The position numbers and the translations under genes were made by a program. The notes under the pieces are model-generated. The model searched no databases and was not told the origin of the DNA. It saw only the letters and a program-made list of their open reading frames with translations. From the NCBI RefSeq assembly GCF_031085375.1, contig NZ_JAVCWF010000001.1, positions 2,852,001 through 2,916,000 of the forward strand: 64,000 bases of DNA, given 5' to 3'. Below are positions 5,807-57,549 of the stretch, in pieces. The DNA comes from Lactiplantibacillus brownii (GTDB taxonomy: Bacteria; Bacillota; Bacilli; Lactobacillales; Lactobacillaceae). Numbering within the stretch: the stretch's first letter is position 1; every line of letters begins with the position of its first letter.

Positions 5807-6778
5807 TTAGCCAGTAAAAATTTCTGGATATAGCTGGCGTAACGCTTGTGCCAAGCAGTGTCCAGCCAGCTGTGAACCAGCCAAGTCCAAATGTACATGA
5901 TCTGTCGTACTTGGTTCCCAGTCAGCCGTTTCAATCAATTGTACGTCCATAAACTCCGGGACAACTGTCCGAATAACCTGATCAAAACGTTGATTAAATG
6001 GGATCAACACGGCTAAACGACTATTGGGATACAACAACGCTACCTGATTAATGAACTGTTTGAGCAACGCCGTGAAACTGGTGGCCGATTCCAAGCCGTC
6101 GTTAGTCCCGACATTAATCACCACCACATCCGTGGGAGTCGGTTGCCAAGCGGTCTGACCATCAATGGCGGTCAATACAGCTGGTAATGGCGGAACACCA
6201 CCTTTGCCTGGCTTATTGAGACCAATTGCACTATACGCAATTCGGACATTGCGAGCGCCCAATAAATCGCTAGCGATGGCGGCATAATTAGCCTCACCGC
6301 GATAGTCTTCTGCGGGCGTCTTGCCGGCAACCCAGCAACCAGCCGTAATCGAGTCACCAATAAAGGTCACGCTATGCTGCCCCGGTTTAACCGCTTGTAA
6401 GTCACCATCCGTTTTTAGCCCTGATACAGCAAAGCCGCTCGTGCCATCCCAAATGGGGTCTTGATCCGTATTACCACTCATCACCACACGAATAACATGT
6501 GGCCGACCGTCTAAAGTCAGCCGCAATGGTAGTGTTTTGACGGCCACACGCTGATAAGGCAAACCATCAATCTGAATCGCGATCCAGGCTCCGGCCGCCA
6601 CAGCCAAATCTAACATGCTGATCATGACATAGCTCGCCCGTTGAACTTGGAACCAAAGCTCAGCGCCTAAATTCGTACTAAACATGACTGGGATATTTTT
6701 AATCGTCTTTACGGTCCAGCGACCTTGAAAATAAGCCGGTATAATCGGATTATTCGCCGTTGTTACTTGGTATTTCAT
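5807..6778 (-). CDS. SGNH/GDSL hydrolase, two-domain carbohydrate-esterase type
   Basis: A 323-residue protein without signal peptide. The C-terminal SGNH hydrolase has block I GDSIT (about residue 140), block III VGTNDG (about 223) and block V DHVHLD (about 295), giving Ser, Asp and His of the triad. The first 130 residues look like the beta-sandwich that precedes the catalytic domain in CE2-like acetylesterases. Such enzymes remove acetyl groups from sugars or oligosaccharides. The ATG at 6778 has a CGGAG site 10 bases upstream. It is a single-gene unit convergent with DUF218. Confidence 0.8.
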   Translation of the reverse strand: MKYQVTTANNPIIPAYFQGRWTVKTIKNIPVMFSTNLGAELWFQVQRASYVMISMLDLAVAAGAWIAIQIDGLPYQRVAVKTLPLRLTLDGRPHVIRVVMSGNTDQDPIWDGTSGFAVSGLKTDGDLQAVKPGQHSVTFIGDSITAGCWVAGKTPAEDYRGEANYAAIASDLLGARNVRIAYSAIGLNKPGKGGVPPLPAVLTAIDGQTAWQPTPTDVVVINVGTNDGLESATSFTALLKQFINQVALLYPNSRLAVLIPFNQRFDQVIRTVVPEFMDVQLIETADWEPSTTDHVHLDLAGSQLAGHCLAQALRQLYPEIFTG

Positions 6779-6816
6779 GCCATCACTCCGTTAAATTTTA
6801 ATCTTATTTCGCAAAC

Positions 6817-6858
6817 TTGATACACGTCAATTTCTAATCAAGGACTAGCTTATATACT
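6817..6858 (+). promoter_or_regulatory. Fnr/Flp-box promoter of the P1B ATPase gene
   Basis: TTGA-TACACG-TCAA (6817-6830) is a perfect Fnr box. Its centre is 32 bp from the centre of TATACT (6853-6858), there is no good -35, and the start codon is 33 bases further on. The same 32 bp geometry occurs at 14739-14780 and 15053-15094, and matches class II activation near -41.5. Confidence 0.75.
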
Positions 6859-6890
6859 AGACTCATCAAATCAAATAAGGAGTCCTTAAA

Positions 6891-8804
6891 ATGAAATTTC
6901 AGCAGTTCTTAACCAAACATACGAATCAAATCACGCTGATCACTGGTGTCCTCATCGTGCTCGGCTTCCTGAGCAAATACGCACTCAACTTTACCCTCGG
7001 CTATCAACTTATTCTAGCCGTTGCTTCCATTATCGCGGTGATTCCCATCGCGGTTCGAGCCTGGAGCGCTCTGATCAACAAAGTCTTCAGTATTGAACTC
7101 TTGGTCAGTATCGCCGTTATCGGGGCCTTCATTATTGGTGAATTCAATGAATCAGCCATCGTCACTTTTCTTTTCCTATTCGGTTCTTACCTTGAAAGCA
7201 AAACGCTACAAAAAACGCGCAATGCTATTAAAGGCTTAACAGACCTCTCACCAACTACTGCGACTTTAGTGACTGACACTGGTACTGAAGAAGTCGATGT
7301 CGATGATGTTGACGAAGGAGATGTCGTCCTCGTTAAAACTGGGAGCCAAGTGCCGGTTGATGGCGTTGTCGTTGAAGGCAATGGCTACATTAACGAAGCC
7401 TCGATCACTGGTGAATCCCGTCAGATCAACAAAAATCTTCAGGATCAAGTTTTCTCAGGCACCATCGTTGAAAACGGCTATTTAAAAATCAAGGCCACCC
7501 AAGTTGGTGACGATACGACCTTTGCGAAGATCATCGAATTAGTTGAAGAAGCGCAAGACACCAAGTCTAAAGCCGAAAAGTTTATCGACCGCTTCGCGCA
7601 ATATTATACCCCAGCTGTCCTAGTCTTGGCTGCCCTAGTGTTCGTCTTTTCCCGTGACTTCCGACTAGCCATCACGGTCCTAGTGCTTGGTTGCCCTGGT
7701 GCCTTAGTTATCGGCGCCCCGGTTTCAAACGTTGCCGGAATTGGGAATGGTGCTAAACGTGGCATTCTTATCAAAGGTGGCGAGGTCATTGATACCTTTG
7801 CCAAAGTTGATACGCTCGTTTTCGATAAAACTGGAACGCTAACTGAAGGCAACACGGCAGTTTCAAGCTTCAAAGCTTACACAACGAACCAAGATCAACT
7901 ATTAACTTTAGCCGCTGCCGTTGAAGGCGTTTCTGACCATCCTCTTGGCAAAGCCATCATTGATTACGCGGGGAGTCACGCTAAAGCTATGCCGGCACCA
8001 AGTTTAGACAACACTGAAACAGTTAAAGGCCAAGGTATTTGCGCCGACGTTAACCATCAACAAGTCGTTATTGGGAATCAAAAAATGTTAACCGCACATG
8101 AAATTAGTTTATCAACCGACCAAGCTCACGACCTTAGTGCCATGCAACAAGCCGGTAAATCAACCGTTATCATGGCTATTGATGGCGTCGTTCAATTGAT
8201 CTTCGGTATTTCTGACACGGTGCGGCCAAATGTCAAAGAATCCTTAGCCGCATTGAAGGCCCAGGGAATCAAAAGACTCGTTATGTTGACGGGTGACAAT
8301 GAATTAACTGCGGACGCCGTTGCACGTGAACTTAATATTGACGAAGTCCACGCCAACCTCTTGCCTGAAGAAAAAGTTGATTACGTTAAGAAACTCAAAA
8401 CTGCCGGTAACACCGTTGCCTTCATTGGCGATGGCATCAACGATAGCCCTTCAATTGCCAACGCTGACATTGGGATCGCGATGGGCAGTGGGACCGACGT
8501 TGCCATCGATACTTCCGACGTCGTCTTAATGCAATCCAGTTTTCCAGCGCTAGTTCATGCCCACGGCTTAGCCAAAAAGACCGTTTTGAATACGCGTGAA
8601 AACATCATCATTGCCATTGCGACCGTCGCCTTCTTGCTCATTGGGTTAATCTTCGGCTACATCTACATGGCCAGTGGGATGTTCGTCCACGAAGCCAGCA
8701 TCCTAGTCGTTATCTTCAATGCAATGCGCTTAATCAACTTCCAAACCAAGTTTGATAAGACGCGTAAGGCGCCTGTTCAACGAACCGCAACGACTACCGC
8801 TTAA
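6891..8804 (+). CDS. P1B-type heavy-metal ATPase with CPG motif
   Basis: A 637-residue membrane ATPase that exports a transition metal. Order: two N-terminal hydrophobic hairpins (residues 15-105), actuator domain with the TGES loop (about 171), metal-site helix with C-P-G-A-L (about 267), DKTGT phosphorylation site (about 311), SDHPLG (about 348), MLTGDN, GDGINDSP (about 513), then two last helices. There is no N-terminal HMA domain. The metal-site motif is CPG rather than the CPC, SPC, TPC or CPH of described subtypes, so the metal cannot be called. The two separate HMA chaperones at 14.5-15 kb have promoters with the same Fnr-box layout and may deliver metal to it (inference). RBS is AAGGAG. 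Confidence 0.85.
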   Translation: MKFQQFLTKHTNQITLITGVLIVLGFLSKYALNFTLGYQLILAVASIIAVIPIAVRAWSALINKVFSIELLVSIAVIGAFIIGEFNESAIVTFLFLFGSYLESKTLQKTRNAIKGLTDLSPTTATLVTDTGTEEVDVDDVDEGDVVLVKTGSQVPVDGVVVEGNGYINEASITGESRQINKNLQDQVFSGTIVENGYLKIKATQVGDDTTFAKIIELVEEAQDTKSKAEKFIDRFAQYYTPAVLVLAALVFVFSRDFRLAITVLVLGCPGALVIGAPVSNVAGIGNGAKRGILIKGGEVIDTFAKVDTLVFDKTGTLTEGNTAVSSFKAYTTNQDQLLTLAAAVEGVSDHPLGKAIIDYAGSHAKAMPAPSLDNTETVKGQGICADVNHQQVVIGNQKMLTAHEISLSTDQAHDLSAMQQAGKSTVIMAIDGVVQLIFGISDTVRPNVKESLAALKAQGIKRLVMLTGDNELTADAVARELNIDEVHANLLPEEKVDYVKKLKTAGNTVAFIGDGINDSPSIANADIGIAMGSGTDVAIDTSDVVLMQSSFPALVHAHGLAKKTVLNTRENIIIAIATVAFLLIGLIFGYIYMASGMFVHEASILVVIFNAMRLINFQTKFDKTRKAPVQRTATTTA

Positions 8805-8817
8805 ATTTAAACAGTTT

Positions 8818-8855
8818 AAAATGACCACCTTCATATTTTGAGGGTGGTCATTTTG
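8818..8855. terminator. Terminator after the P1B ATPase, possibly bidirectional
   Basis: The stem AAAATGACCACC / GGGTGGTCATTTT has short T runs on either strand. It is the only candidate terminator for the convergent LacI gene. Confidence 0.75.
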
Positions 8856-8923
8856 TAGGCAAAGTCTGCCTAATTTAAACAGGATATAATTATCAATTAA
8901 AACGTGGTTGAGCCCTATTTCAG

Positions 8924-9865
8924 CTACCAATTATTAATAAACTCAGAATCAATTGCAATCCGCCGTTTTTCACCACTCACAGCTAGCTGTAAGGCTTGTT
9001 GCCCAACGATTTGGCAATGATGATCAATCGTTGGAAATTGGGCCAGCTCGCCAGAAAGTTGGTGTTCCTGCCCAATTAAAACGGGGACCGGCAACTTTGC
9101 TTGCTGATAAGCACGCTGTACGCCAACCGCAATATCATCACTATTGGCAAAGATCGCCTCAAAAGTCTGTCCTGACGCAATAAACCGTTCGGCCGCGCGT
9201 TGCCCATCCGCCATCGTAATGACATCCGTCGCCAACATTGCTGGTCGTGGTGACTCCCCATAGACGATTCGATAAGCTTCCGCCGTGGCTTGACTCGTTT
9301 CACTAACCGCAATCGGCCGACTCATCAGTAAAGCAACTCGCTGACAGCCCTGCACTTTCAATGTCGTTAAGGCTTGCACATAAGTTTGCCGCCGATGGGC
9401 ATATGCGGCTGACAAACCGCTATCTCGAGGTGGCTGACAGATGACAATCGGCCCATATTTTTGATACGTCGCAATTTCAGCCAAAGGTAACCCGTGTGAA
9501 GTGAAAATTAAGGCATCGTAGGCTTTACGCCGAAAAGCGGCCAAATAAGTGCGTTCAATCTCAGCCTCAAATCGTGAAGATAACAAAATGACGTGATAAT
9601 CAGCGACAAACGCGGCCTTCGTAATGCCTTGAATCAACTGAACAAAATACGGATGGTCCAGGTTAGGCAAGATGACACCAATCGTCATCGTTTTGCCACG
9701 ACTTAAATCACGCGCCACATCATTTGGCACATAATCCAGCTCATCAATCACTTTTTGGACCGCCGCTCGCGTTTCGGTCGTCACGTAATCTTTATGATTC
9801 AGCACCCGTGACACCGTCGAGACTGAATAACCCGATAACCGTGCCACGTCATGTATATTGGTCAT
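8924..9865 (-). CDS. LacI-family transcriptional regulator
   Basis: A 313-residue regulator. The N-terminal HTH and hinge are typical: NIHDVARLSGYSVSTVSRVLN (residues 3-23), then YVPNDVARDLSRGKT. The periplasmic-binding-like effector domain follows (GVILPNLDHPYFVQLIQGI onward, ending with a DDIAVG segment). The start is taken as the second of two adjacent ATGs (9865), 6 bases after GAGGG. No sugar gene is adjacent; the neighbours are the ATPase and darTG, so the effector and targets are unknown. It is not GalR, which is at 40.4 kb. Confidence 0.82.
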   Translation of the reverse strand: MTNIHDVARLSGYSVSTVSRVLNHKDYVTTETRAAVQKVIDELDYVPNDVARDLSRGKTMTIGVILPNLDHPYFVQLIQGITKAAFVADYHVILLSSRFEAEIERTYLAAFRRKAYDALIFTSHGLPLAEIATYQKYGPIVICQPPRDSGLSAAYAHRRQTYVQALTTLKVQGCQRVALLMSRPIAVSETSQATAEAYRIVYGESPRPAMLATDVITMADGQRAAERFIASGQTFEAIFANSDDIAVGVQRAYQQAKLPVPVLIGQEHQLSGELAQFPTIDHHCQIVGQQALQLAVSGEKRRIAIDSEFINNW

Positions 9866-9928
9866 CATTAGCCCTCTTTCACTCGCCAGCACGCCTCATC
9901 CATCGACACATTAAGCACTACAGCACAA

Positions 9929-10975
9929 TTAAAATGGCAATTCATCTTTCGTTTGATCATATTCACCTAGATATGCCAGATGACCATCTATCCTTACTTC
10001 TAGTTTATAAGATGACTCCGGTCGATTCAATATAAACGGCATGGTTGTATTTAGTAACGCTTTATATCCCGGTTTCGGCCAGATCACAGTCCTACCAGTT
10101 GGTGTCACAGATTTTATGCTCACATTCAAGTAGCGATCCACGCTGTCAGGATTAATTGCATATTGTACATGTCCCCAATCGCTAGGATAGGAGTCCTGCA
10201 CACTGCATTTAAGTGTGAACTTAGTTGAATCCAAACTCACATTTTGGATAAAATTCCTGTCCATATAAAAAGTAGACTCATCCCCAATCTGAATCATTGC
10301 ATCATATTTGAATATGCCAACTTCGTGCAGTTCTGCCAATAACATTGTTTTCTCTGCAATAGATCTGACGTAAATAAATTTGAGTAATTTTAAATCCAAC
10401 TCATCCGGTACAACAATTTCAGCATGTTTATGATGAGTAATTGTTTTTTTCTGTGTATAATCCAATCCATTAAAGCTAGAATCGTGATAGATTTGTTCAA
10501 AGGGCAAGTTGTTAAAAGCTTCGGGTGTATTAAATAATGGTACATTTTTCGAAGCCAGTGACCGATTAGAAAATTTAGTAGCCGGCAAGTTTAAAAGTCC
10601 AACCATATCAAACAAAAAGAAAACCGGCACCGGACAGTTGGCATTATAGGGCTTTCTTTCTCGCTTATACTTCGTCTGGAAACCCTCATTGTAAAATTGT
10701 GTTGGTGTCCGTGGTCTAAAATATAATCGCACCATTTTCTTTATTTCTGATTCAGTTTGATCGATAACCTCATTGCTCGCATTATCATTCGCCATGACAC
10801 CATTTTGTTCTGCATATGCCCTTGAAATCAATGATCCCCTTTTCAAAATATCAATAACATTGTCACTATCAGTAAAATGAAAAGCAAAGCGTGGCCAGTA
10901 TCTCCGTTTAGCAGGATTCAAATTAGTTGTCTTAGTGCCATTAAGTAGTTCTGCTACAATATCAGAGTACGTCAT
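9929..10975 (-). CDS. darT: DarT-family DNA ADP-ribosyltransferase toxin, extended
   Basis: A 348-residue protein. Residues 1 to about 225 match the DUF4433/DarT fold: FAFHFTDSDNVIDILKRGSL (NAD-binding start), VRLYFRPRTPTQFYNEG (the conserved F/Y-x-P-R-T/S-P motif with the key Arg), and HAEIVVPDELDLKLL, whose Glu is the catalytic residue, followed by IYVRS. Classical DarT enzymes are about 210-230 residues; here about 120 extra residues of beta-rich sequence follow. DarT modifies single-stranded DNA (thymidine for DarT2, guanosine for DarT1), and which base applies here cannot be seen. It starts 2 bases after the darG stop with a strong GGAGGGG site. Base composition is clearly AT-richer than its neighbours. 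Confidence 0.85.
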   Translation of the reverse strand: MTYSDIVAELLNGTKTTNLNPAKRRYWPRFAFHFTDSDNVIDILKRGSLISRAYAEQNGVMANDNASNEVIDQTESEIKKMVRLYFRPRTPTQFYNEGFQTKYKRERKPYNANCPVPVFFLFDMVGLLNLPATKFSNRSLASKNVPLFNTPEAFNNLPFEQIYHDSSFNGLDYTQKKTITHHKHAEIVVPDELDLKLLKFIYVRSIAEKTMLLAELHEVGIFKYDAMIQIGDESTFYMDRNFIQNVSLDSTKFTLKCSVQDSYPSDWGHVQYAINPDSVDRYLNVSIKSVTPTGRTVIWPKPGYKALLNTTMPFILNRPESSYKLEVRIDGHLAYLGEYDQTKDELPF

Positions 10976-48802: not shown

Positions 48803-49136
48803 ATACAATTAAATTTATAAGTTGACACGATTTAGCTAAGTTCATCTACCGAGTCGCGCAGGACCAGAAAACAAAAAAATAACCACCTACAAAAACTTTA
48901 GCCAGTTTTAGGTGATTATTTTTATTAATTTACCAATTATCGGCCACTACTCTTAAAAGGGTTTGCCTGTAGGAAGTGCTCATTTGCACTTCTTTTTTAC
49001 ATTTTTACTATAACATAAGTATAGTACATATGATATTTTTTGAACTTTAATCCTAAAATATGCTTCACCAGTGACTAAGCACCCCACATATTCAAAAAAC
49101 CAGTCAAATTTTAGCGTCTGACTGGTTTTTTCATTA
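48803..49136. other. Gene-free stretch with three terminator-like hairpins
   Basis: Hairpins at about 48886-48926 (AATAACCACCT / AGGTGATTATT), 48970-48998 (GAAGTGC / GCACTTC + T run) and 49097-49131 (AAAAACCAGTCA / TGACTGGTTTTT). The last serves the flavin reductase gene on the minus strand. The other two have no gene to end; they may be left from lost genes or close short transcripts. Confidence 0.45.
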
Positions 49137-51431
49137 TTAGATTGTGACCTTAGCTGGCTTCAATGACAAGCTATCTAAGAAATTGTTGAAGCATTGGGTC
49201 AAGAAGTGCTCACTGCCATCATCGTTCAACTGGCCAAATTCATTAAATTTAGTTCCAGCTTGCGGCAACATGAACTCATTGCCTGGCATCACTTGGGCAT
49301 CCACACCGGGCGCATCCAGAATCTGCCGGAGATTCATTTGGGCGCGAACCGTTCCTTGAATGCCAAGCGACGTTCCGACGATCATGACCGGCTTGTCTTT
49401 AAACGGATGTTCCGCACAGGAGAACCATTCGATGGCACTCTTTAACGCGGCAGGAATCGCATGATCATATTCGGGTACCCCGATGACCACACCATCCGCG
49501 GCCGCAATTTTGGCACCTAGTGCTTTGACATTGGCCGGTTCATGGTCTAAATCATCTTCATTAAACAATGGCAAATCCGCAATCTCGCAAATTTCAAAGT
49601 TTACTTGGGCATCAAATAATTCCTTCATCGCAGTCAACAATTTTCGATTATAAGATTTGGAAGCATTGGTCCCAACAATAGCCACGAGGTGCGCTTCATT
49701 ATCGCCAGCACTGGCTTGACGCTTAGCATTGGCACTCGCCGCTGCGCCAGCAACATAACCTGAAGAGATTCCCCAAGTGTTCATCATACTTGGCATTGAA
49801 TCATGCCCGTTGGCACCGCCGATAACTTCACCAGCACCAAAGTAGTTCGCGACCGGCGTGTTTTTAGTCGTCAACAGTTGTAAGTTATGTGCATCCGCCG
49901 CATAGCCACCTAAAGTCGTCGCAAAACGGTCGCGTTGTTCGATGACATAGTAAGTCTCACCTTCAAATTGATGCAAGAACTGCGGATCACGGCCAAATTC
50001 ACGATCATGACCAGCCGCAACATAACCTTGATAGGCTGCCACCGTTTTAGCCAAATGCGCGCTATCAATCCCGGCGATCGTAGCGACCGTCTGTAAATCA
50101 CCCTTCGCAAAGATGGGCCGTTTGGCCGGATCCGCGAAGTAGCCTTGAATTTCTTGGGGCGTAAAGTCATGCAAGATCAAGAGGTCATAGACTTTCTTCC
50201 AAGTCCGCTCGTCCATTAGCAAGTAAGCCACTTTATCGTCCTGCTTCAAAATGGCATTGCGGAACGCCGTATAAACGTTCGATTCATTGACGATCCGTTC
50301 ACCTTTTGAGTTCACGTAAATCGAACCCATATCGGTCGCTTGTTTAGACGCATAAGTCGTTAACTTAGCCACGCCCGGTTCAACTTCAACCCCATGTGGA
50401 TAGATCTTGTACCACCCTAAATCATGGGTCTGCAAGTCCAGCGCATCGTTAAAGCGATAGGCATCACCAGTCGACGTCATTGGCCCATAATAATCGATGC
50501 CTGTACTTTCAGCACCACGCATCTTTTGATTAGCACCATGACCACCCGTGGCGAGCACGACCGAACGTGCTTTGATCTTAACCGTTTGACCATGTTGCTT
50601 GGCAATCACGCCCGTCACTTGCTTTTGCCGATTAAGCCGCAAAGATTGAACCGGCATATCCAGCAAAATCTGACCACCCGCAGCAGTAAAGGCTTTGGAA
50701 ACTTTTTGAATGAATTCGAAACTAGAAGCAGACGGCAATTCGATTTGACGATTGATTGAATGTTCAGGCGTTTGCGTTTGGGCTTTTTGATAATGCAAGT
50801 TGGCAAACTGACTAATAAAATCAATCGCTGGCCCAATATGCTTGACCATTAAATCCGTCAAGGCCGGATAGTTCGTTTCTAAGCTTTCACGAGCCACATC
50901 CTGCGCCAACATTTCGGGCGTATCATGATTATTGTCAAAGATTTGCGCAGAAACATCTGAACCGGTACCGACCACATTTGAACCATTTAAAACAGTCGCG
51001 CCACCTAAGTAGCCATTCTTTTCGACTAAAATCACTTTTTGACCTTGCGCTAAGGCTCGACAGCCAGCAACTAAGCCCGCTTCACCACCGCCAATAACTA
51101 AGACATCAGTTTGATAGTGCTTGATGGCCCCAGACTGGGCTTTCTTAGGCACGGGTGTCACCGAAATACCTTGCTTAGTCACTGCTTGGTCCGCTGACTT
51201 CAGTAGCGCCTGCGTCATCACTGTCGCCCCACTGATCGTATCGACATTAAACGACTGTTCTTCAATAATGTTATGTTTTAATTTATCAATGACTTGATTG
51301 AAAATACCGGACGTTTCTGAATGCTTCAAAATTTTCAGATCTTCAATTTTATTATCCTGAATATCCACTTCATAATTAATAATGCCATTGTGGCCCATTG
51401 CTTGGCCTTGAATTTGTTCATTTTTACTCAA
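49137..51431 (-). CDS. FMN_bind + FAD-binding fumarate-reductase-like + FMN_red fusion
   Basis: A 764-residue cytoplasmic flavoprotein, no signal peptide. Residues about 10-95: FMN_bind domain with DTISGATVMT, the S-G-A-T motif whose Thr ApbE flavinylates. About 105-565: FAD_binding_2 domain (VLVIGGGEAGLVAGCRAL, later VVLATGGHGANQ and FGAGEVIGGANGHDSMPSMMNTWGISSGYVAG), like fumarate and urocanate reductases; the usual HG-x-NR active site is altered. About 580-764: NADPH-dependent FMN reductase domain (VAIVGTNASKSYNRKLL, VPEYDHAIPAALKSAIEW). It can pass electrons from NAD(P)H to an enoate-type acceptor. TTG start at 51431 (AAGGAG), overlapping apbE by 8 bases. Substrate inferred from the operon. 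Confidence 0.85.
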   Translation of the reverse strand: MSKNEQIQGQAMGHNGIINYEVDIQDNKIEDLKILKHSETSGIFNQVIDKLKHNIIEEQSFNVDTISGATVMTQALLKSADQAVTKQGISVTPVPKKAQSGAIKHYQTDVLVIGGGEAGLVAGCRALAQGQKVILVEKNGYLGGATVLNGSNVVGTGSDVSAQIFDNNHDTPEMLAQDVARESLETNYPALTDLMVKHIGPAIDFISQFANLHYQKAQTQTPEHSINRQIELPSASSFEFIQKVSKAFTAAGGQILLDMPVQSLRLNRQKQVTGVIAKQHGQTVKIKARSVVLATGGHGANQKMRGAESTGIDYYGPMTSTGDAYRFNDALDLQTHDLGWYKIYPHGVEVEPGVAKLTTYASKQATDMGSIYVNSKGERIVNESNVYTAFRNAILKQDDKVAYLLMDERTWKKVYDLLILHDFTPQEIQGYFADPAKRPIFAKGDLQTVATIAGIDSAHLAKTVAAYQGYVAAGHDREFGRDPQFLHQFEGETYYVIEQRDRFATTLGGYAADAHNLQLLTTKNTPVANYFGAGEVIGGANGHDSMPSMMNTWGISSGYVAGAAASANAKRQASAGDNEAHLVAIVGTNASKSYNRKLLTAMKELFDAQVNFEICEIADLPLFNEDDLDHEPANVKALGAKIAAADGVVIGVPEYDHAIPAALKSAIEWFSCAEHPFKDKPVMIVGTSLGIQGTVRAQMNLRQILDAPGVDAQVMPGNEFMLPQAGTKFNEFGQLNDDGSEHFLTQCFNNFLDSLSLKPAKVTI

Positions 51432-52380
51432 TTGAATACACTCCTTTGCGTCGCGGCTGTAAGCCACTGGTAACAATAACGTGTTGTTGATGATCGACAA
51501 ATACGGCTTCCGTTTGTGGTGTCTGGGCAATCAAAGTAGCGCCAGCTTGAGGTCCTTTGAAATAACAAACGGTCGCTAAAACTTCGGCTAACTCTGACTG
51601 GGCGGTGATAATCGTCACTTGATCGACCTGATTTCGGACCGGATAACCGGTTTGCGGATCTAGAATGTGATGATACATATGATTGCCGACCTTAAAGTAA
51701 CGTTCAAAAATACCAGAGGTCACAATCGTGCGGGCAGGCATTTGAACTTGTAACAACGGAATGCCCCGAATGGCTTGCGGTGCTTGGATGCCAACCTCCC
51801 AGCGACCATCTACCGTTAAAGGATTCTCACCCAAAAGCTTCACATTACCACCAAGATTAACGATGGCACTCGCAACCCCCGCGGCTCGTAATTGCGCCAC
51901 CAGTTTATCGGCAAAATAACCCTTAGCAATCGCGCCGAGATCTAATTGCATCCCTGCTTGTTTTAAATAAACCGTCTGCGCTGAAGCATCCAAAGCGACT
52001 TGGCTTAAATCCATCAACTTCAATCGCCGCTGAATCTCAGTTTCAGCTGGCACTTGCTCCCCGCCAAAACCAATTCGCCACAGCTTTACTAAGGGGCCAA
52101 TCAAAACGTTGAAGCTATCCGCATGTCGCTGTGAATACTGCAACGCATCATGAATCAGCTCAAATGCAGTGGCACTGACCTTAACAGGTCGCACGCCGGC
52201 TTGCTGATTGATCGCCATTAACTCCGAATCCGGTCGATTCATCGAAAAGACCTGATCCATCCGTTGCAAATAATCGTAGCTCGCTTCAATCAGTGCCAGT
52301 TGTGGGTCAAACAGCGTGATGGCGATGACGGTGCCCATCATCTGAAACTGGGACACATATTTCTTGTGTGACTGTCTCAC
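51424..52380 (-). CDS. apbE: ApbE flavin transferase
   Basis: A 318-residue FMN transferase without signal or lipobox, so cytoplasmic. Motifs: MMGTVIAITLF (14-24), LIGPLVKLW (about 92), LDLGAIAKGYFADKL (about 152), GVASAIVNLGGN, VTSGIFERYF, and HHILDPQTGYPV (about 235). It links FMN from FAD to Thr in FMN_bind domains; the target is almost certainly the fused reductase encoded by the overlapping next gene. GTG start with AAGG 9 bases upstream; 24 bases after aroD. Confidence 0.9.
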   Translation of the reverse strand: MRQSHKKYVSQFQMMGTVIAITLFDPQLALIEASYDYLQRMDQVFSMNRPDSELMAINQQAGVRPVKVSATAFELIHDALQYSQRHADSFNVLIGPLVKLWRIGFGGEQVPAETEIQRRLKLMDLSQVALDASAQTVYLKQAGMQLDLGAIAKGYFADKLVAQLRAAGVASAIVNLGGNVKLLGENPLTVDGRWEVGIQAPQAIRGIPLLQVQMPARTIVTSGIFERYFKVGNHMYHHILDPQTGYPVRNQVDQVTIITAQSELAEVLATVCYFKGPQAGATLIAQTPQTEAVFVDHQQHVIVTSGLQPRRKGVYSIE

Positions 52381-52404
52381 GGATGGTCACCTTCCTTTCA
52401 AAAA

Positions 52405-53163
52405 TCACTTTAGTTTCAACGTTTCCAGCGCTGGCCGTAAGTGGTCGAGCGCGATTTGGCCGGGCGCCGAGGCAGCCCCGACTGTGGCAAATGATAAACA
52501 TGAGCCAAACACTTCTCCAGCTAGGCGTGATACCTTGCCTAAATCCCCCATCGACATCGTAATAATCGGTTGTGACAGTGATTGTCGAGCTTCGTTCGTT
52601 GCTGCCAGTAAGGTCAACACATCCGCAACAGATTGTGGCATCACGGCCATTTTGGCGATGTCCGCACCGAACGCAACCATACTGGTTAACCGTTGAACGA
52701 TTTCTGCTTGCGCTGGAGTCTTGTCGAAATCATGATTACTCATAATCACGATGACGTTCGCGGCATGAGCTTGGGCCACGAGTTGTTTCACGGCAGCTTC
52801 AGCATGATAGCGTTCAATGTCGAGCGCATCCGTAAAGTGACCAGTTAAGACGTTGGCGCAAACTTTGAAGTAATCGCTATCGCTTAACGTCCGCTCGCCA
52901 CCTTCACCTTTTGTGCGAAAAGTCGTGAGTAACGCCAGATCACCTAAAGCGGCTCGTAATTTTCGGCCAGCGGCTTGTAGCGTTTCCGCGTCCGTTACAC
53001 CGTCAAAATAATCAATCCGCCATTCCACTAGATCTGGTTGCGCGGCTTTAATTGGCTTCACGGCAGCAAGAATTTCTGCGAGCGTTTTACCGGTAATCGG
53101 TACAGCGATTTTTGGTCGCCCCATTCCTAAGCTCAGGTTGCGACAGTTAACGACTGGTTGCAT
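52405..53163 (-). CDS. aroD: 3-dehydroquinate dehydratase, type I (copy 1)
   Basis: A 252-residue class I dehydroquinase. The Schiff-base Lys is in ADIAKMAVMP (about 170) and the catalytic His in MSNHDFDKTP (about 145). VEWRIDYFDG holds the substrate-binding Glu-Arg, and QPIITMSMGDLGKVSRL closes the site. It interconverts 3-dehydroquinate and 3-dehydroshikimate. Sits between aroE and apbE, not with biosynthetic aro genes, so a catabolic role is likely. RBS AAAGGGG. Confidence 0.92.
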   Translation of the reverse strand: MQPVVNCRNLSLGMGRPKIAVPITGKTLAEILAAVKPIKAAQPDLVEWRIDYFDGVTDAETLQAAGRKLRAALGDLALLTTFRTKGEGGERTLSDSDYFKVCANVLTGHFTDALDIERYHAEAAVKQLVAQAHAANVIVIMSNHDFDKTPAQAEIVQRLTSMVAFGADIAKMAVMPQSVADVLTLLAATNEARQSLSQPIITMSMGDLGKVSRLAGEVFGSCLSFATVGAASAPGQIALDHLRPALETLKLK

Positions 53164-53199
53164 GTTTAACGAACCCCTTTCTGGTTTATCACTGGCTGA

Positions 53200-54078
53200 C
53201 TACGCATCTTCATCGAATAAAATATGGCGAATATAATCGACCGGCATCTCTTCACCAGTCCACAATTTGAAAGCCGCAGCGCCTTGTTCAAGCATCATAC
53301 CCAGACCATTGAAGACCTGCGTCACACCAGCAGCTTGTGCCACTTTCATCAATTTGGTGGTTCGTGGGGCATAAACGGTATCAAAAACGATCTGGTCTTT
53401 ACGGAACCAAGTTGGATCAGTCACTAGCGTTTCATTTTCCAATGGCTTCATTCCAACACCGGTGGCATCCGTATAAATCGCCGAATCTTGAATTTCTGCT
53501 TTAAAATCGTCACGATCTTCCAAGGCGTGTAATGTTGCCCGACAATTGGTTCGTTCATTAATGAGCTTGACATTGCGCACGGCATTATCCCATTCGGCAT
53601 CGTGCCGATTAAAGATCGATAGGTCGCTGACGCCATCTAAGGCAGCTTGAACCGCAATCGCAGTTCCGGCGCCACCAGCCCCTGCTAAGGTCATCTTCTG
53701 GCCACGAATATTGAGGCCTTCATCATCCAATGACTTCATGAACCCAAGCCCATCAGTCGTATATCCGGTTAAAATGCCTTTATCATTCACAACAGTGTTA
53801 ACTGCCCCAATCATTTCAGCGGCTGGATCTAATTTGTCTAGTAAAGGAATGACCTTTTGCTTATTCGGCATTGAAATGTTAGACCCCCGCATATCCAAAG
53901 TCCGAATCGCTTGAATTGCGGCTGGTAATTGGTCATTACCTACTTCAAAGGCTAGGTAAGCATAATTTAGGCCCAACTTGGCAAAAGCGTTATTGTGCAT
54001 CGTCGGCGACATTGAATGCCGAATCGGGTACGCCATCAAACCAATTAGTAAAGTATGTCCGTCAATTCGTTCCGTCAT
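53200..54078 (-). CDS. aroE: Quinate/shikimate dehydrogenase, YdiB-type (copy 1)
   Basis: A 292-residue dehydrogenase. Substrate site AYPIRHSMSPTMHNNAF (about 16-32) and SMPNKQKVIPLLD with the catalytic Lys; the NAD(P) loop is GAGGAGTAIAVQ (about 135-146). The SMPNKQ and GMKPLENE wording matches E. coli YdiB more than biosynthetic AroE, so it may use quinate as well as shikimate. Start at 54078 by comparison with copy 2. First gene of aroE-aroD-apbE-reductase; promoter at 54138-54166. Confidence 0.9.
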   Translation of the reverse strand: MTERIDGHTLLIGLMAYPIRHSMSPTMHNNAFAKLGLNYAYLAFEVGNDQLPAAIQAIRTLDMRGSNISMPNKQKVIPLLDKLDPAAEMIGAVNTVVNDKGILTGYTTDGLGFMKSLDDEGLNIRGQKMTLAGAGGAGTAIAVQAALDGVSDLSIFNRHDAEWDNAVRNVKLINERTNCRATLHALEDRDDFKAEIQDSAIYTDATGVGMKPLENETLVTDPTWFRKDQIVFDTVYAPRTTKLMKVAQAAGVTQVFNGLGMMLEQGAAAFKLWTGEEMPVDYIRHILFDEDA

Positions 54079-54137
54079 CATTAATCACTCCTCATAAAAT
54101 TTTAAATATCGGTTATTTGTTACTCAATTCACTTGTC

Positions 54138-54166: not shown

Positions 54167-54224
54167 TAAACGTTTTTTAATTAATTGATTGAATTTTTCT
54201 ATCAATGAAAGGGGTTCCATTTCT

Positions 54225-55154
54225 ATGAATCTACGTCACCTCCAATTTTTCAAAGAATTGGCCCGCACACAACACATGGCTAAAGCCGCTGAGAACCTTG
54301 GTATTTCGCAACCGACACTCAGTTACGCCATCAAAAAGCTGGAATCTGAACTTGGGGTGCCGTTATTTGAGCCAGATGGTCGTAATATTAAATTAACAGC
54401 CATTGGCGGCACCTATTTAACGTACATCACTGCCAGTTTAAATGATTTATCACAAGGCAACGAATTGGTCCAACAATTAATGAATCCAGATACCGGCCAC
54501 GTTAAACTAGGCTTTACTTACACCCTAGGACAAGAACTGGTACCAGAACTAATCGCCAACTTTCAAGCTGATTCGCAAAATCGTGCGATTACATTTCAAC
54601 TGGGACAAGGTAATTCCAATGACTTGTTGCAAGACCTAGCCAACGAACATTATGATCTCGTTTTAGCTTCCAATGTGGAAAAACTAGGAGCGAGTGCCGC
54701 TAACGATGTCCTCGACTTCATCCCAATCGTCCAACAAACGATTATGGCTGCCGTCTCGGCCCAGCACCCTTTAGCCGTCAAATCAGAATTGAAAGTGACC
54801 GACTTAGCTCCCTACCCGATGATCCTATTCACTAAGAATAGTGGCTTACGCCCACTCATCGACCAAATTTTGGCACGCGCCCACGTGACCCCCAAAGTTG
54901 CCTACGAGGTCGAAGAAGACCACACCATGGCTGGATTCGTACGGTACAACTTTGGCGTGGCGTTAATGCCTTACTTACCACTATTAGAACAAAGTAGTGT
55001 CTTGCTCAAGCCATTGGTCGACCAACCGCTACAGCACCAACTCTACTTAGTCATGAAGCGTAATCACTTCATCACGCCGTCGGTCCAACGCTTTAAGGAG
55101 TTCAGCCGCAGTTATTGTTGGCAACACTATACCGCTCAGGATCGGTTAATTTGA
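54225..55154 (+). CDS. LysR-family regulator of the aro cluster
   Basis: A 309-residue LysR protein. HTH MNLRHLQFFKELARTQHMAKAAENLGISQPTLSYAIKKLESELG spans residues 1-44; the co-inducer domain (about 90-295) has LGFTYTLGQELVPELIANF at its start. The ATG at 54225 follows AAAGGGG; an earlier in-frame ATG gives a non-family extension. Divergent from aroE copy 1 and 2.4 kb from aroE copy 2, whose promoter is alike, so it probably controls both with quinate or shikimate as co-inducer (inference). Confidence 0.86.
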   Translation: MNLRHLQFFKELARTQHMAKAAENLGISQPTLSYAIKKLESELGVPLFEPDGRNIKLTAIGGTYLTYITASLNDLSQGNELVQQLMNPDTGHVKLGFTYTLGQELVPELIANFQADSQNRAITFQLGQGNSNDLLQDLANEHYDLVLASNVEKLGASAANDVLDFIPIVQQTIMAAVSAQHPLAVKSELKVTDLAPYPMILFTKNSGLRPLIDQILARAHVTPKVAYEVEEDHTMAGFVRYNFGVALMPYLPLLEQSSVLLKPLVDQPLQHQLYLVMKRNHFITPSVQRFKEFSRSYCWQHYTAQDRLI

Positions 55155-55191: not shown

Positions 55192-55761
55192 ATGTCTGGA
55201 AATAACGACGGTTTATCACAAAACAACGACAAGACTCCTCATCATATTTTGAATAAAACAATTTCTCGTGAATTTTCACAACAAGGTCTTCAAATTCTAG
55301 TGTTCGGCTCCAATGATCAAGTTAAAACAAGATTCGTACACCATTACTTGGACCAACTGCAAAAAGATTGCGGAACCAATCACATTACGATGACGCTAAC
55401 CAGTCAAACAACCCTAATTGGTTTTTTGACCGAGGTTACTGCTAAACTTGAATCATCATTTTCTATTAAATTTCCATCTTCTGAATTACTTCCTGTTACC
55501 AATTATTTTATAGCTCTAGCAGAAATACTCTTCACACATAACGTCGTTTTAGTGGTGACCGACATGACAGTTTCAACTGAGCAAACCAAGCACTTGAAAC
55601 AATATTTAGCTAATCTTGCCAAAAACATGTCCGATGATGCCATCAATTATGCGGATTCTCATGCTAAAATCATCTTCATTGGTAACACCGAAACAGCTGA
55701 GGAACTATGGTCCGATGTTCAATCTTTAAAAAGTCGGCTAGCAACCATTCTAGCTAGGTAG
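55192..55761 (+). CDS. Unknown protein with P-loop-like features
   Basis: A 189-residue soluble protein. FGSNDQVKTRFVHHYLDQL (about 38-56) has the place and shape of a Walker A strand-loop-helix but lacks the last Gly of GK[ST]; NVVLVVTDMTVS (about 116-127) resembles a Walker B strand; AKIIFIGNTETAEELW resembles a sensor strand. So it may be a degenerate AAA/STAND-type ATPase domain that no longer binds ATP well. No family is recognised. It is 37 bases after the LysR gene in the same direction and may be co-transcribed. Confidence 0.6.
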   Translation: MSGNNDGLSQNNDKTPHHILNKTISREFSQQGLQILVFGSNDQVKTRFVHHYLDQLQKDCGTNHITMTLTSQTTLIGFLTEVTAKLESSFSIKFPSSELLPVTNYFIALAEILFTHNVVLVVTDMTVSTEQTKHLKQYLANLAKNMSDDAINYADSHAKIIFIGNTETAEELWSDVQSLKSRLATILAR

Positions 55762-55904: not shown

Positions 55905-56657
55905 TTAATTGTTCAATGTTAACTCATCTAAAATTGGACGCAAGCGTTCGACCGAAATTTGTCCCGGCGCTGATGCTGCACCAACTGTGGCAAACGATAA
56001 ACATGACCCAAAAACTTCCCCAGCCAAACGTGAGACTTTACCTAAATCACCCATTGCCATAGTGATGACTGGTTGTGTTAACGTCTGCTGGGCCTCGTTA
56101 GTCGCGGCCAATAAAGTTAAGACGTCAGCGGCAGACTGTGGCATCACTGCCATCTTAGCAATATCAGCCCCCCAGTCAACCATGCTGGCTAATCGCTGAA
56201 CGATATCACTTTGCGCTGGGGTTTGCTCGAAGTCATGATTACTCATAATGACGACCACGTTTTGTTGATGCGCTTGCGCAACTAAGCGTTTGACGGCCGT
56301 TTCGTCATGATAGCGTTCAAGATCTAACGCATCAGTATATCCTCCAGCTAACGCCGTAGCGCAAATATCAAAGTAAGCTGCCTCGGTCAATGCCAAATTG
56401 CCGCCCTCACCAGATGTCCGAAAAGTTGTTAACAAGGCAATATCTCCAAGCACGGCTCGCAATTGTTGACCTGTTTGTTGTAGTTTTACGGGGTCCATGA
56501 CGGCATCATAAAAGTCAATCCGCCACTCGACTAAATCCGGTTGGGCGGCTTTGATTGCTGGGACGGCTGCTAGAATATCAGCCATCGTGTGCCCGGTAAT
56601 TGGTACCGCAATTTTCGGTCGGCCCACACCCAATTTCAGATTACGACACTTGACCAT
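55905..56657 (-). CDS. aroD: 3-dehydroquinate dehydratase, type I (copy 2)
   Basis: A 250-residue paralogue of the gene at 52405, about as similar as a recent duplicate, with the same catalytic Lys (ADIAKMAVMP) and His (MSNHDFEQTP). The ATG at 56657 is taken; another ATG four codons earlier overlaps the aroE stop (GCGTAATAAGATG). No separate ribosome site is seen, so translation is coupled to aroE. The unit ends here, with no apbE or reductase following. Confidence 0.9.
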   Translation of the reverse strand: MVKCRNLKLGVGRPKIAVPITGHTMADILAAVPAIKAAQPDLVEWRIDFYDAVMDPVKLQQTGQQLRAVLGDIALLTTFRTSGEGGNLALTEAAYFDICATALAGGYTDALDLERYHDETAVKRLVAQAHQQNVVVIMSNHDFEQTPAQSDIVQRLASMVDWGADIAKMAVMPQSAADVLTLLAATNEAQQTLTQPVITMAMGDLGKVSRLAGEVFGSCLSFATVGAASAPGQISVERLRPILDELTLNN

Positions 56658-56661
56658 CTTA

Positions 56662-57549
56662 TTACGCATTGGCCGCATCGTCGTCAAACAAAATTTGATG
56701 AATATAATCAACCGGCATCTCTTTCCCGGTCCACAACTTGAAGGCAGCCGCGCCTTGTTCAAGCATCATGCCAAGACCATTGAAGACGTGTTCAACACCT
56801 GCAGCTTGCGCTACGGTCATCAATTTTGTCGTCCGTGGGGCATAAACTGTGTCAAACACGACTAAATCCTTCCGCAGCCAACTAGGATCATCAATCAAGG
56901 TTTGACCCTCTAAAGGCTTCATCCCAACACCAGTCGAATCAGTGTAAATGAATGAGTCTTGAATTTCGGCTTTGAAATCATTCCGATTTTCTAACTCATG
57001 CAAAGTCGCATGACAGTTCGTCCGATCATTAATCAGCTTAACGTTACGGACCGCGTTATCCCATTCTGCATCATGTAAGTTAAAAATCGAGATTTCGCTA
57101 ACCCCATCTAAAGCCGCTTGAACCGCAATTGCGGTTCCGGCGCCACCAGCACCAGCCAACGTCATCTTGTGACCACGGATATCGATTTCTTCATCATCTA
57201 AAGCTTTCATGAAACCAATGCCATCGGTCGTGTAGCCAGTCAAAACACCGTCATCGTTAACGATCGTATTCACTGCGCCCACCATTTCGGCAGCTGGATC
57301 CAATTTATCTAGTAATGGAATGACTCGTTGCTTATTCGGCATGGAAATATTAGTGCCACGCATCTCAAGCGTTCGGAGTGCGTCGATTGCGGCCGGTAAT
57401 TTTTCAGCCGTGACATCAAAAGCTAAATAAGCGTAGTTAAGTCCAAGCTTTGCAAAGGCATTATTATGCATCGTCGGCGACATAGAATGTCGGATAGGGT
57501 ACGCCATTAAGCCAATTAAGATCGTGTGACCATCAATTCGTTCTGTCAT
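56662..57549 (-). CDS. aroE: Quinate/shikimate dehydrogenase, YdiB-type (copy 2)
   Basis: A 295-residue paralogue of the gene at 53200, nearly identical over the substrate site (AYPIRHSMSPTMHNNAF) and NAD(P) loop, differing mainly in surface residues. It keeps SMPNKQ with the catalytic Lys. RBS CAGGAG. Different substrate or cofactor preference from copy 1 (quinate versus shikimate) is possible but not visible. Confidence 0.9.
   Translation of the reverse strand: MTERIDGHTILIGLMAYPIRHSMSPTMHNNAFAKLGLNYAYLAFDVTAEKLPAAIDALRTLEMRGTNISMPNKQRVIPLLDKLDPAAEMVGAVNTIVNDDGVLTGYTTDGIGFMKALDDEEIDIRGHKMTLAGAGGAGTAIAVQAALDGVSEISIFNLHDAEWDNAVRNVKLINDRTNCHATLHELENRNDFKAEIQDSFIYTDSTGVGMKPLEGQTLIDDPSWLRKDLVVFDTVYAPRTTKLMTVAQAAGVEHVFNGLGMMLEQGAAAFKLWTGKEMPVDYIHQILFDDDAANA

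Follow-up and report, generated by a model that had tools for sequence, protein, structure and literature searches.

A candidate quinate/shikimate-linked flavin reductase in a conserved aroE-aroD-apbE operon of Lactiplantibacillus brownii

In a stretch of 64,000 nucleotides from the 3.35-Mb genome of Lactiplantibacillus brownii (contig NZ_JAVCWF010000001.1, positions 2,852,001 to 2,916,000; the whole stretch is referred to here as the window), we have analysed a minus-strand operon of four genes: aroE1, aroD1, apbE and a gene for a putative three-domain flavin ene-reductase, which we refer to as RED. Our main finding is that the operon probably serves the use of plant quinate and shikimate as cytoplasmic hydrogen acceptors, with RED saturating the ring of 3-dehydroshikimate (DHS) and NAD+ being regenerated, a reading to which we assign a probability of roughly 0.7; the flavinylation, the electron route, the substrate, the product and the inducer are parts of it that we infer. 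A quinate/shikimate-linked ring-alkene reductase, as had been proposed in an earlier note on this DNA, is the best reading because of five observations taken together: the linkage of RED to AroD and AroE across relatives, a natural fusion of RED with AroD, an upstream box that is shared by many of the loci, an active site that is not that of a fumarate reductase, and a genome in which 3-dehydroquinate (DHQ) synthase was not found.

The aroE-aroD-apbE-RED genes form one tight operon that ends in a strong hairpin, with all four genes at the place and on the strand given by the earlier note: aroE1 (53200..54081, 293 aa), aroD1 (52405..53163, 252 aa), apbE (51424..52380, 318 aa) and RED (49137..51431) follow one another, separated first by 36 and then by 24 bases, while apbE and RED overlap by 8 bp. 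The overlap depends on the start codon of RED: the mechanical open reading frame (ORF) opens at TTG 51530, inside apbE, and we have moved the likely start to TTG 51431, 9 nt past the sequence AAAGGAG, a ribosome-binding site read from the sequence (51429..51447 with the start codon, minus strand, within the end of apbE), which gives RED a length of 764 aa. Past the stop codon a hairpin of 15 bp is followed by a U tract, computed as an intrinsic terminator (49094..49131, minus strand; -18.1 kcal/mol, z -6.57). The Pfam matches of the first three genes are all over the gathering scores: Shikimate_dh_N at 106.9 bits for aroE1, DHquinase_I at 237.9 bits for aroD1, a type I 3-dehydroquinate dehydratase that also passes TIGR01093 (232.8 bits, cut-off 139.3), and 265.8 bits for ApbE, a FAD:protein FMN (flavin mononucleotide) transferase. 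The motifs surrounding the catalytic His, Lys and Arg are found in aroD1, and the motif positions of aroE1 hold Lys, Asn and Asp. The best PDB match of aroE1 is the shikimate dehydrogenase 3tnl; the gene passes the shikimate dehydrogenase model NF001313 (513.6 bits, cut-off 431) and stays under the cut-off of the quinate/shikimate model NF009390 (313 bits against 349), so that the catabolic type that had been claimed for this dehydrogenase is plausible and goes no further.

The three domains of RED are an FMN_bind domain at residues 13-84 (51180..51395, 47.7 bits), a FAD_binding_2 core at residues 109-545 (49797..51107, 118.1 bits) and an NAD(P)H:FMN reductase-type FMN_red module at residues 582-725 (49257..49688, 129 bits), all on the minus strand and over the Pfam gathering scores. 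The first of these carries D64-T-I-S-G-A-T70, with T70 as the candidate FMN site, and matches D-x-x-[S/T]-G-A-[S/T], which PMC12052999 gives as the motif for flavinylation; an ApbE target motif had indeed been read here before. In an alignment of RED with the best 120 of its 833 homologues (121 rows, on which all our active-site counts are based), D64 and T/S70 are each kept in 120 rows, one row being gapped. Having both an FMN_bind domain and the motif, RED is, as judged from its sequence, a putative target of flavinylation by ApbE. No hydrophobic N-terminal leader is visible by eye in RED or in ApbE, which is apparently cytoplasmic, and inspection of the operon by eye and by Pfam has revealed no membrane or secreted part; because everything looks soluble, "respiration-like", the term of the earlier note, is probably the wrong one, and the process would instead be the reduction, in the cytoplasm, of a hydrogen acceptor that comes from outside. 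Against the flavocytochrome c subfamily model TIGR01813 RED scores 179.7 bits, under the cut-off of 285.45, while the HcrB-like protein of the same genome scores 340.4. The AlphaFold2 model of RED (mean pLDDT 86.4, pTM 0.84) has urocanate reductase and flavocytochrome c3 as its closest folds, and RED, as modelled, shares the core fold of the flavocytochrome c type fumarate reductases. Judged by the reductase, the nearest named relative of the genome is Lactiplantibacillus pingfangensis (91% identical).

The active site within this fold has been altered, as had been suspected. With the alignment of flavocytochrome c3 as reference (in its residue numbering, of which H505, E378, R381, R402 and H365 appear in titles of PDB mutant entries), seven of the eight fumarate-site positions are replaced in RED: His365 by Y344, Glu378 by K363, Arg381 by T366, Arg402 by Y387, the His-His pair 504/505 by A504-T505 (Ala or Cys, then Thr) and Arg544 by S545, the place of Thr377 alone retaining Ser/Thr. 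In all, the residues that we follow in the core are Y344, S/T362, K363, T366, Y387, R391, A/C504, T505 and S545; among these Y344, K363, Y387, R391 and T505 are invariant in all 121 rows, while S545 is kept in 120 and T366 in 117. The alteration is, by this alignment, genuine and a fixed trait of the clade. On these residues we reject fumarate reductase and urocanate reductase, the names that relatives bear in databases. The alteration has two layers: Y344, A504, T505 and S545 are also found in seven distant reductases of the order (31-34% identity), which have Asn at the place of Y387 and are without K363, T366 and R391; since the distant reductases share the rest, K363, T366, Y387 and R391 mark the clade and the other replacements are older.

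The same positions bear on an explanation that we regard as unlikely, in which RED acts on a plant acid that occurs together with quinate, reducing its side chain (the caffeate part of chlorogenic acid is an example), and shares no more than its regulation with the quinate genes. Chlorogenic acid releases quinate and caffeate together, according to PMC12248444, and the set of domains in RED resembles that of the hydroxycinnamate reductase HcrB. The genome already has HcrAB-like genes elsewhere, however, and their HcrB, which is itself without His365, Glu378 and Arg381, retains Arg402, both His and Arg544, all of which are replaced in RED; its domain order also differs, with FMN_red first. A reductase of the HcrB type is ruled out by domain order and active-site residues. 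So is one of the Par1 type, no SDR family being found among the Pfam matches of RED: Par1 is described as an SDR_a5 protein (PMC10269891), and RED is therefore not Par1. The HcrAB-like pair (L101:2238-6464) is accompanied by a divergent LysR gene of its own, and the strain thus has two different reductases that bear the flavinylation motif; a further ApbE also lies elsewhere in the genome (L100:7520-8964).

The comparison of the RED loci of 38 relatives has revealed that the reductase is linked to AroD and AroE. In a range of 5 kb around RED, 34 of these loci have AroD and 36 an AroE-family gene (L031 has diverged paralogues only, and L041 a broken one); a gene of the major facilitator superfamily (MFS) is near RED in 30, a relative of the LysR gene (at least 45% identity, within 7 kb) in 31, ApbE (at least 45%, within 1.5 kb) in 25, an SDR relative in eight and a TIM barrel in three. 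The linkage persists through at least five gene orders, in which LysR, where marked by <, is divergent: LysR< aroE-MFS-aroD-apbE-RED; LysR< aroE-aroD-apbE-RED; LysR< aroD-apbE-RED..aroE; MFS-RED-aroE-aroD; and RED followed by LysR< aroE-aroD. Judged by ORFs, RED has three domains in 24 loci, is without FMN_red in 13 and lies in pieces in L041; a stricter script rule for the three-domain form gave 23 of 38. In Ligilactobacillus pobuzihii (L039:9998-12475), a single ORF of 825 aa joins a two-domain RED, which has no FMN_red, to a dehydroquinase that covers 228 of the 230 profile positions, and a protein database entry (P0067) has the same length and domains. The fusion points to a ring intermediate as substrate, rather than to the side chain of a plant acid.

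The linkage exceeds chance. In an even draw of 301 genomes from the family, 38 match RED at E<=1e-60. Of these, 35 span the FAD core with at least 50% identity, and three are weaker or match the FMN_red part only. AroD is found no more than 5 kb from RED in 30 of these 35 genomes, for which random placement would, by a rough estimate, give about 0.3. The order set (295 genomes) has 21 matches at E<=1e-60, namely 14 clade members and the seven distant reductases, near which no AroE or AroD was seen within short flanks of about 1.5 kb, and an even draw of 398 genomes from the phylum has, besides the genome's own, two matches at E<=1e-50, with 29-32% identity and without the clade pattern. A scan of viral contigs with the fused RED-AroD protein has yielded no relative. 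The clade also occurs in certain Lactobacillus species that live in the guts of bees. As a separate observation, two genomes of genus g38 (L082:1432-3309 and 6726-8492; L084:3153-5027 and 8333-10045) have a second reductase about 3.4 kb from the RED cluster, 25-26% identical and retaining the Arg402, His-His and Arg544 places.

Could RED be a general electron-disposal enzyme, i.e. a quinone, azo or metal reductase working through FMN_red, with its place beside aroE and aroD an accident? The solved structures closest to its FMN_red part are indeed YieF/chromate reductase; we nevertheless hold the idea to be highly improbable, since the core pattern is present in basal REDs that have no FMN_red, and most of these are also linked to AroE/AroD. 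A quick tree of 46 rows was computed (SH-aLRT support only, 13 of 43 inner branches weak), whose root lies on long outgroup branches and is unsure. The two-domain REDs fall outside. The three-domain form occupies a single nested clade (26 rows, support 99), which belongs to a larger one (29 rows, support 100) where ApbE usually adjoins RED; L031, without FMN_red but inside the three-domain clade, has for this reason probably lost the module. If the root is right, the linkage to AroE/AroD would predate that to ApbE, and FMN_red would have joined last.

A further shared element is located in front of the operon, where a LysR-type regulator is transcribed divergently (54189..55154, plus strand; identified by Pfam and a candidate quinate/shikimate sensor). 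The conserved box RCAAGTGAATTGAGTAACAA (54117..54136, minus strand), the candidate operator of this regulator, has one match in the window and none in 100 shuffles, and 25 of the 38 loci have its core of 17 bases, with three variable positions, next to LysR in front of the operon; aroD is the first gene in four of these and RED in one. Six loci have the LysR gene and no box, and seven are without that LysR. The box was not found before the second aroE gene of the window (aroE2, below) nor in the second cluster of the genome (L099, below). It overlaps a promoter-like site (54127-54099) that scores 9/12, although sites of this kind occur across the region at chance level (17, against 15.9 in shuffles). 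The box is only imperfectly symmetric, and a scan for a strongly palindromic T-N11-A LysR box common to the intergenic regions has found none in the window; we infer the binding of LysR to RCAAGTGAATTGAGTAACAA.

The proposed course of events is as follows. AroE would oxidise quinate to 3-dehydroquinate, or shikimate to DHS, and AroD would dehydrate 3-dehydroquinate to DHS, whose ring double bond stands between the carboxylate and the ketone, the same double activation as makes fumarate reducible. The operon's own ApbE would attach FMN to Thr70 of RED; the FMN_red module would accept hydride from NAD(P)H, and electrons would pass from it to the covalent FMN, on to the core FAD (flavin adenine dinucleotide) and to the double bond of DHS, which would be saturated. 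Y387, at the place of the proton-donating arginine of fumarate reductases, may be the acid, with K363 and R391 as possible ligands of the carboxylate. The ketone would then be reduced by AroE paralogues or an SDR, giving dihydroshikimate-type products, with a net gain, by our own count, of one NAD+ per quinate or shikimate, and the divergent LysR would switch the operon on through the conserved box. We consider DHS a considerably more probable direct substrate than shikimate.

A genome search has found no match to DHQ synthase (the control matched in 11 of 14 genomes), and aroA (L129:11576-12883) is split by an in-frame stop in the assembly, so that de novo aromatic synthesis looks incomplete there; as an explanation for the operon it is weakened by the DHQ synthase result, DAHP (3-deoxy-D-arabino-heptulosonate 7-phosphate) synthase not having been searched for. 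Salvage would make sense for AroE and AroD given that DHQ synthase was not found, and the genome has genes for chorismate synthase, shikimate kinase and prephenate dehydrogenase; on this basis the operon might instead supply aromatic amino acids, with external quinate or shikimate entering the lower shikimate pathway by way of AroD and AroE, and RED acting as a redox helper or performing a side reaction. We judge this very unlikely, because saturation of the ring destroys the aromatic precursor, the split aroA counts against it, and both the presence of ApbE and a flavin ene-reductase in the operon and the AroD fusion would be left unexplained.

RED alone cannot suffice for the formation of a dihydroxycyclohexane carboxylate, since the loss of a hydroxyl and the reduction of a ketone are also needed. 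Candidates for the other steps are located in a second cluster (L099:7777-15216, at about 736.8-744.2 kb of contig G000:C1), consisting of an MFS gene, LysR, a TIM barrel, an SDR, two AroE paralogues and another MFS gene; with AroE1 and AroE2 these paralogues make four AroE-family genes in the genome. The genes of the second cluster directly precede the RED operon in Lactiplantibacillus plantarum (L013) and L. herbarum (L011); TIM barrel, SDR, MFS, RED, AroE and AroD are contiguous in two Tetragenococcus loci (L036, L038) and one of Ligilactobacillus (L037), and SDR orthologs (60-75%) without the TIM barrel are near RED in four Secundilactobacillus loci and in Limosilactobacillus gastricus. 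The second cluster may perform the remaining steps. Its TIM barrel, whose 91%-identical ortholog in L. herbarum has Lmo2234 as closest PDB structure, could split a hydroxyl off the saturated ketone, or could be a dehydroshikimate dehydratase leading to protocatechuate and then to catechol, an oxidative branch that would fit a passage on apple ferments in PMC7464816. Taken further, the two clusters, merged in L. plantarum, might be the complete gene set from quinate and shikimate to dihydroxycyclohexane carboxylates, a joint reading that we advance only tentatively: RED would be a new class of ring reductase of the fumarate-reductase fold with a tyrosine as proton donor, the L. pobuzihii fusion would channel DHS, the Lmo2234-like TIM barrel would remove a hydroxyl from the saturated ring ketone and make no protocatechuate, and the co-travelling SDR would be the hydroaromatic dehydrogenase that is reported to have been described from L. 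plantarum in the 1970s.

Several observations weigh against the reading that we prefer, namely the reduction of the DHS ring by RED. The window operon is without the MFS gene that is found between aroE and aroD in many relatives. AroD is absent from the vicinity of RED in four of the 38 loci (L035 and L042, both of Tetragenococcus, L031, and the broken L041), and is not within 5 kb in five of the 35 family genomes: it lies at 8.9 kb in G271 and on another contig in G122 and G019, G226 has no match, and G099 has a single weak match that is unplaced. Among the 30 linked genomes, AroD is broken in G286 and RED in G078 and G118. ApbE is not alongside RED in 13 loci and FMN_red is missing from RED in 13, so that donor and flavinylation may differ there, and the claim of an own NAD(P)H-FMN reductase module stands for the RED of the window and not for all relatives. 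The residue pattern is only in part peculiar to the clade, four of the residues being shared with the distant reductases, and the roles of Y387, K363 and R391 are guesses; an Arg402Tyr variant of flavocytochrome c3 has been crystallised (PDB title) and is said to be impaired, so that a tyrosine at this place is no proof of an acid. Finally, PMC7464816, with its passage on apple ferments, names catechol and ethylcatechol there, an oxidative fate with no ring reduction.

On the far side of the LysR gene are an ORF of 189 aa (55192-55761) with no Pfam or NCBIfam match and a second pair of minus-strand genes, recognised by Pfam and alignment: aroD2, a type I dehydroquinase whose start we have taken at ATG 56657 (55905..56657), and the shikimate dehydrogenase gene aroE2 (56662..57549), 74% and 84% identical to aroD1 and aroE1, respectively. 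The pair (55905-57549) has two GH1 glycosidases and a gene of a phosphotransferase system (PTS) as neighbours, and neither a RED nor an upstream box. A third, weaker type I dehydroquinase of the genome is without such neighbours.

Fruit, coffee and vegetables commonly contain quinate and shikimate, and the physiology of their reduction by lactobacilli has been described; Whiting and Coggins reportedly found dihydroxycyclohexane carboxylates as the products. Among the open-licence papers listed, we have met neither this conversion nor an assignment of genes to the reduction of quinate and shikimate. The operon is real and conserved, and it offers a credible gene assignment, drawn from comparison of sequences, for the physiology described. 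If RED is a ring reductase, strains could be predicted and selected for an electron sink in plant ferments, the fumarate-reductase fold would gain a new specificity class, and relatives now labelled fumarate reductase (PDB 2lfc, from L. plantarum) or urocanate reductase (several database entries) would have their names corrected; if borne out, the assignment would matter for the working of fruit and vegetable ferments, and an old pathway would become genetically testable.

Among known systems, the soluble fumarate reductase of Klebsiella pneumoniae has NADH as its donor. Compared by its description, this flavinylated enzyme is like RED in being cytoplasmic, in carrying the motif D-x-x-[S/T]-G-A-[S/T], on which its FMN sits, and in being served by a cytoplasmic ApbE (PMC12052999); unlike it, RED is without most of the fumarate-site residues and stands in a quinate/shikimate locus. 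UrdA and flavocytochrome c3 have catalytic and carboxylate-binding residues that are largely replaced in RED, in which neither a heme domain nor a signal peptide is seen. HcrAB of L. plantarum has the same FMN_red, FMN_bind and FAD modules, but HcrB differs from RED in their order (FMN_red-FMN_bind-FAD), in a core identity of only about 25% and in its active-site residues; according to PMC10295242, HcrAB requires NADH and FMN and is under LysR-type control. The 3-ketosteroid and cyclohexanone dehydrogenases are 18-21% identical to RED. These dehydrogenases work in the oxidative direction. The quinate/shikimate loci of Listeria (QuiR, QuiC2) combine LysR with AroE/AroD-type genes, and the RED-linked TIM barrel of some relatives has as its closest PDB structure Lmo2234, which we take to be QuiC2; to our knowledge, a reductase of the RED type is an addition to this arrangement that the Listeria loci do not have.

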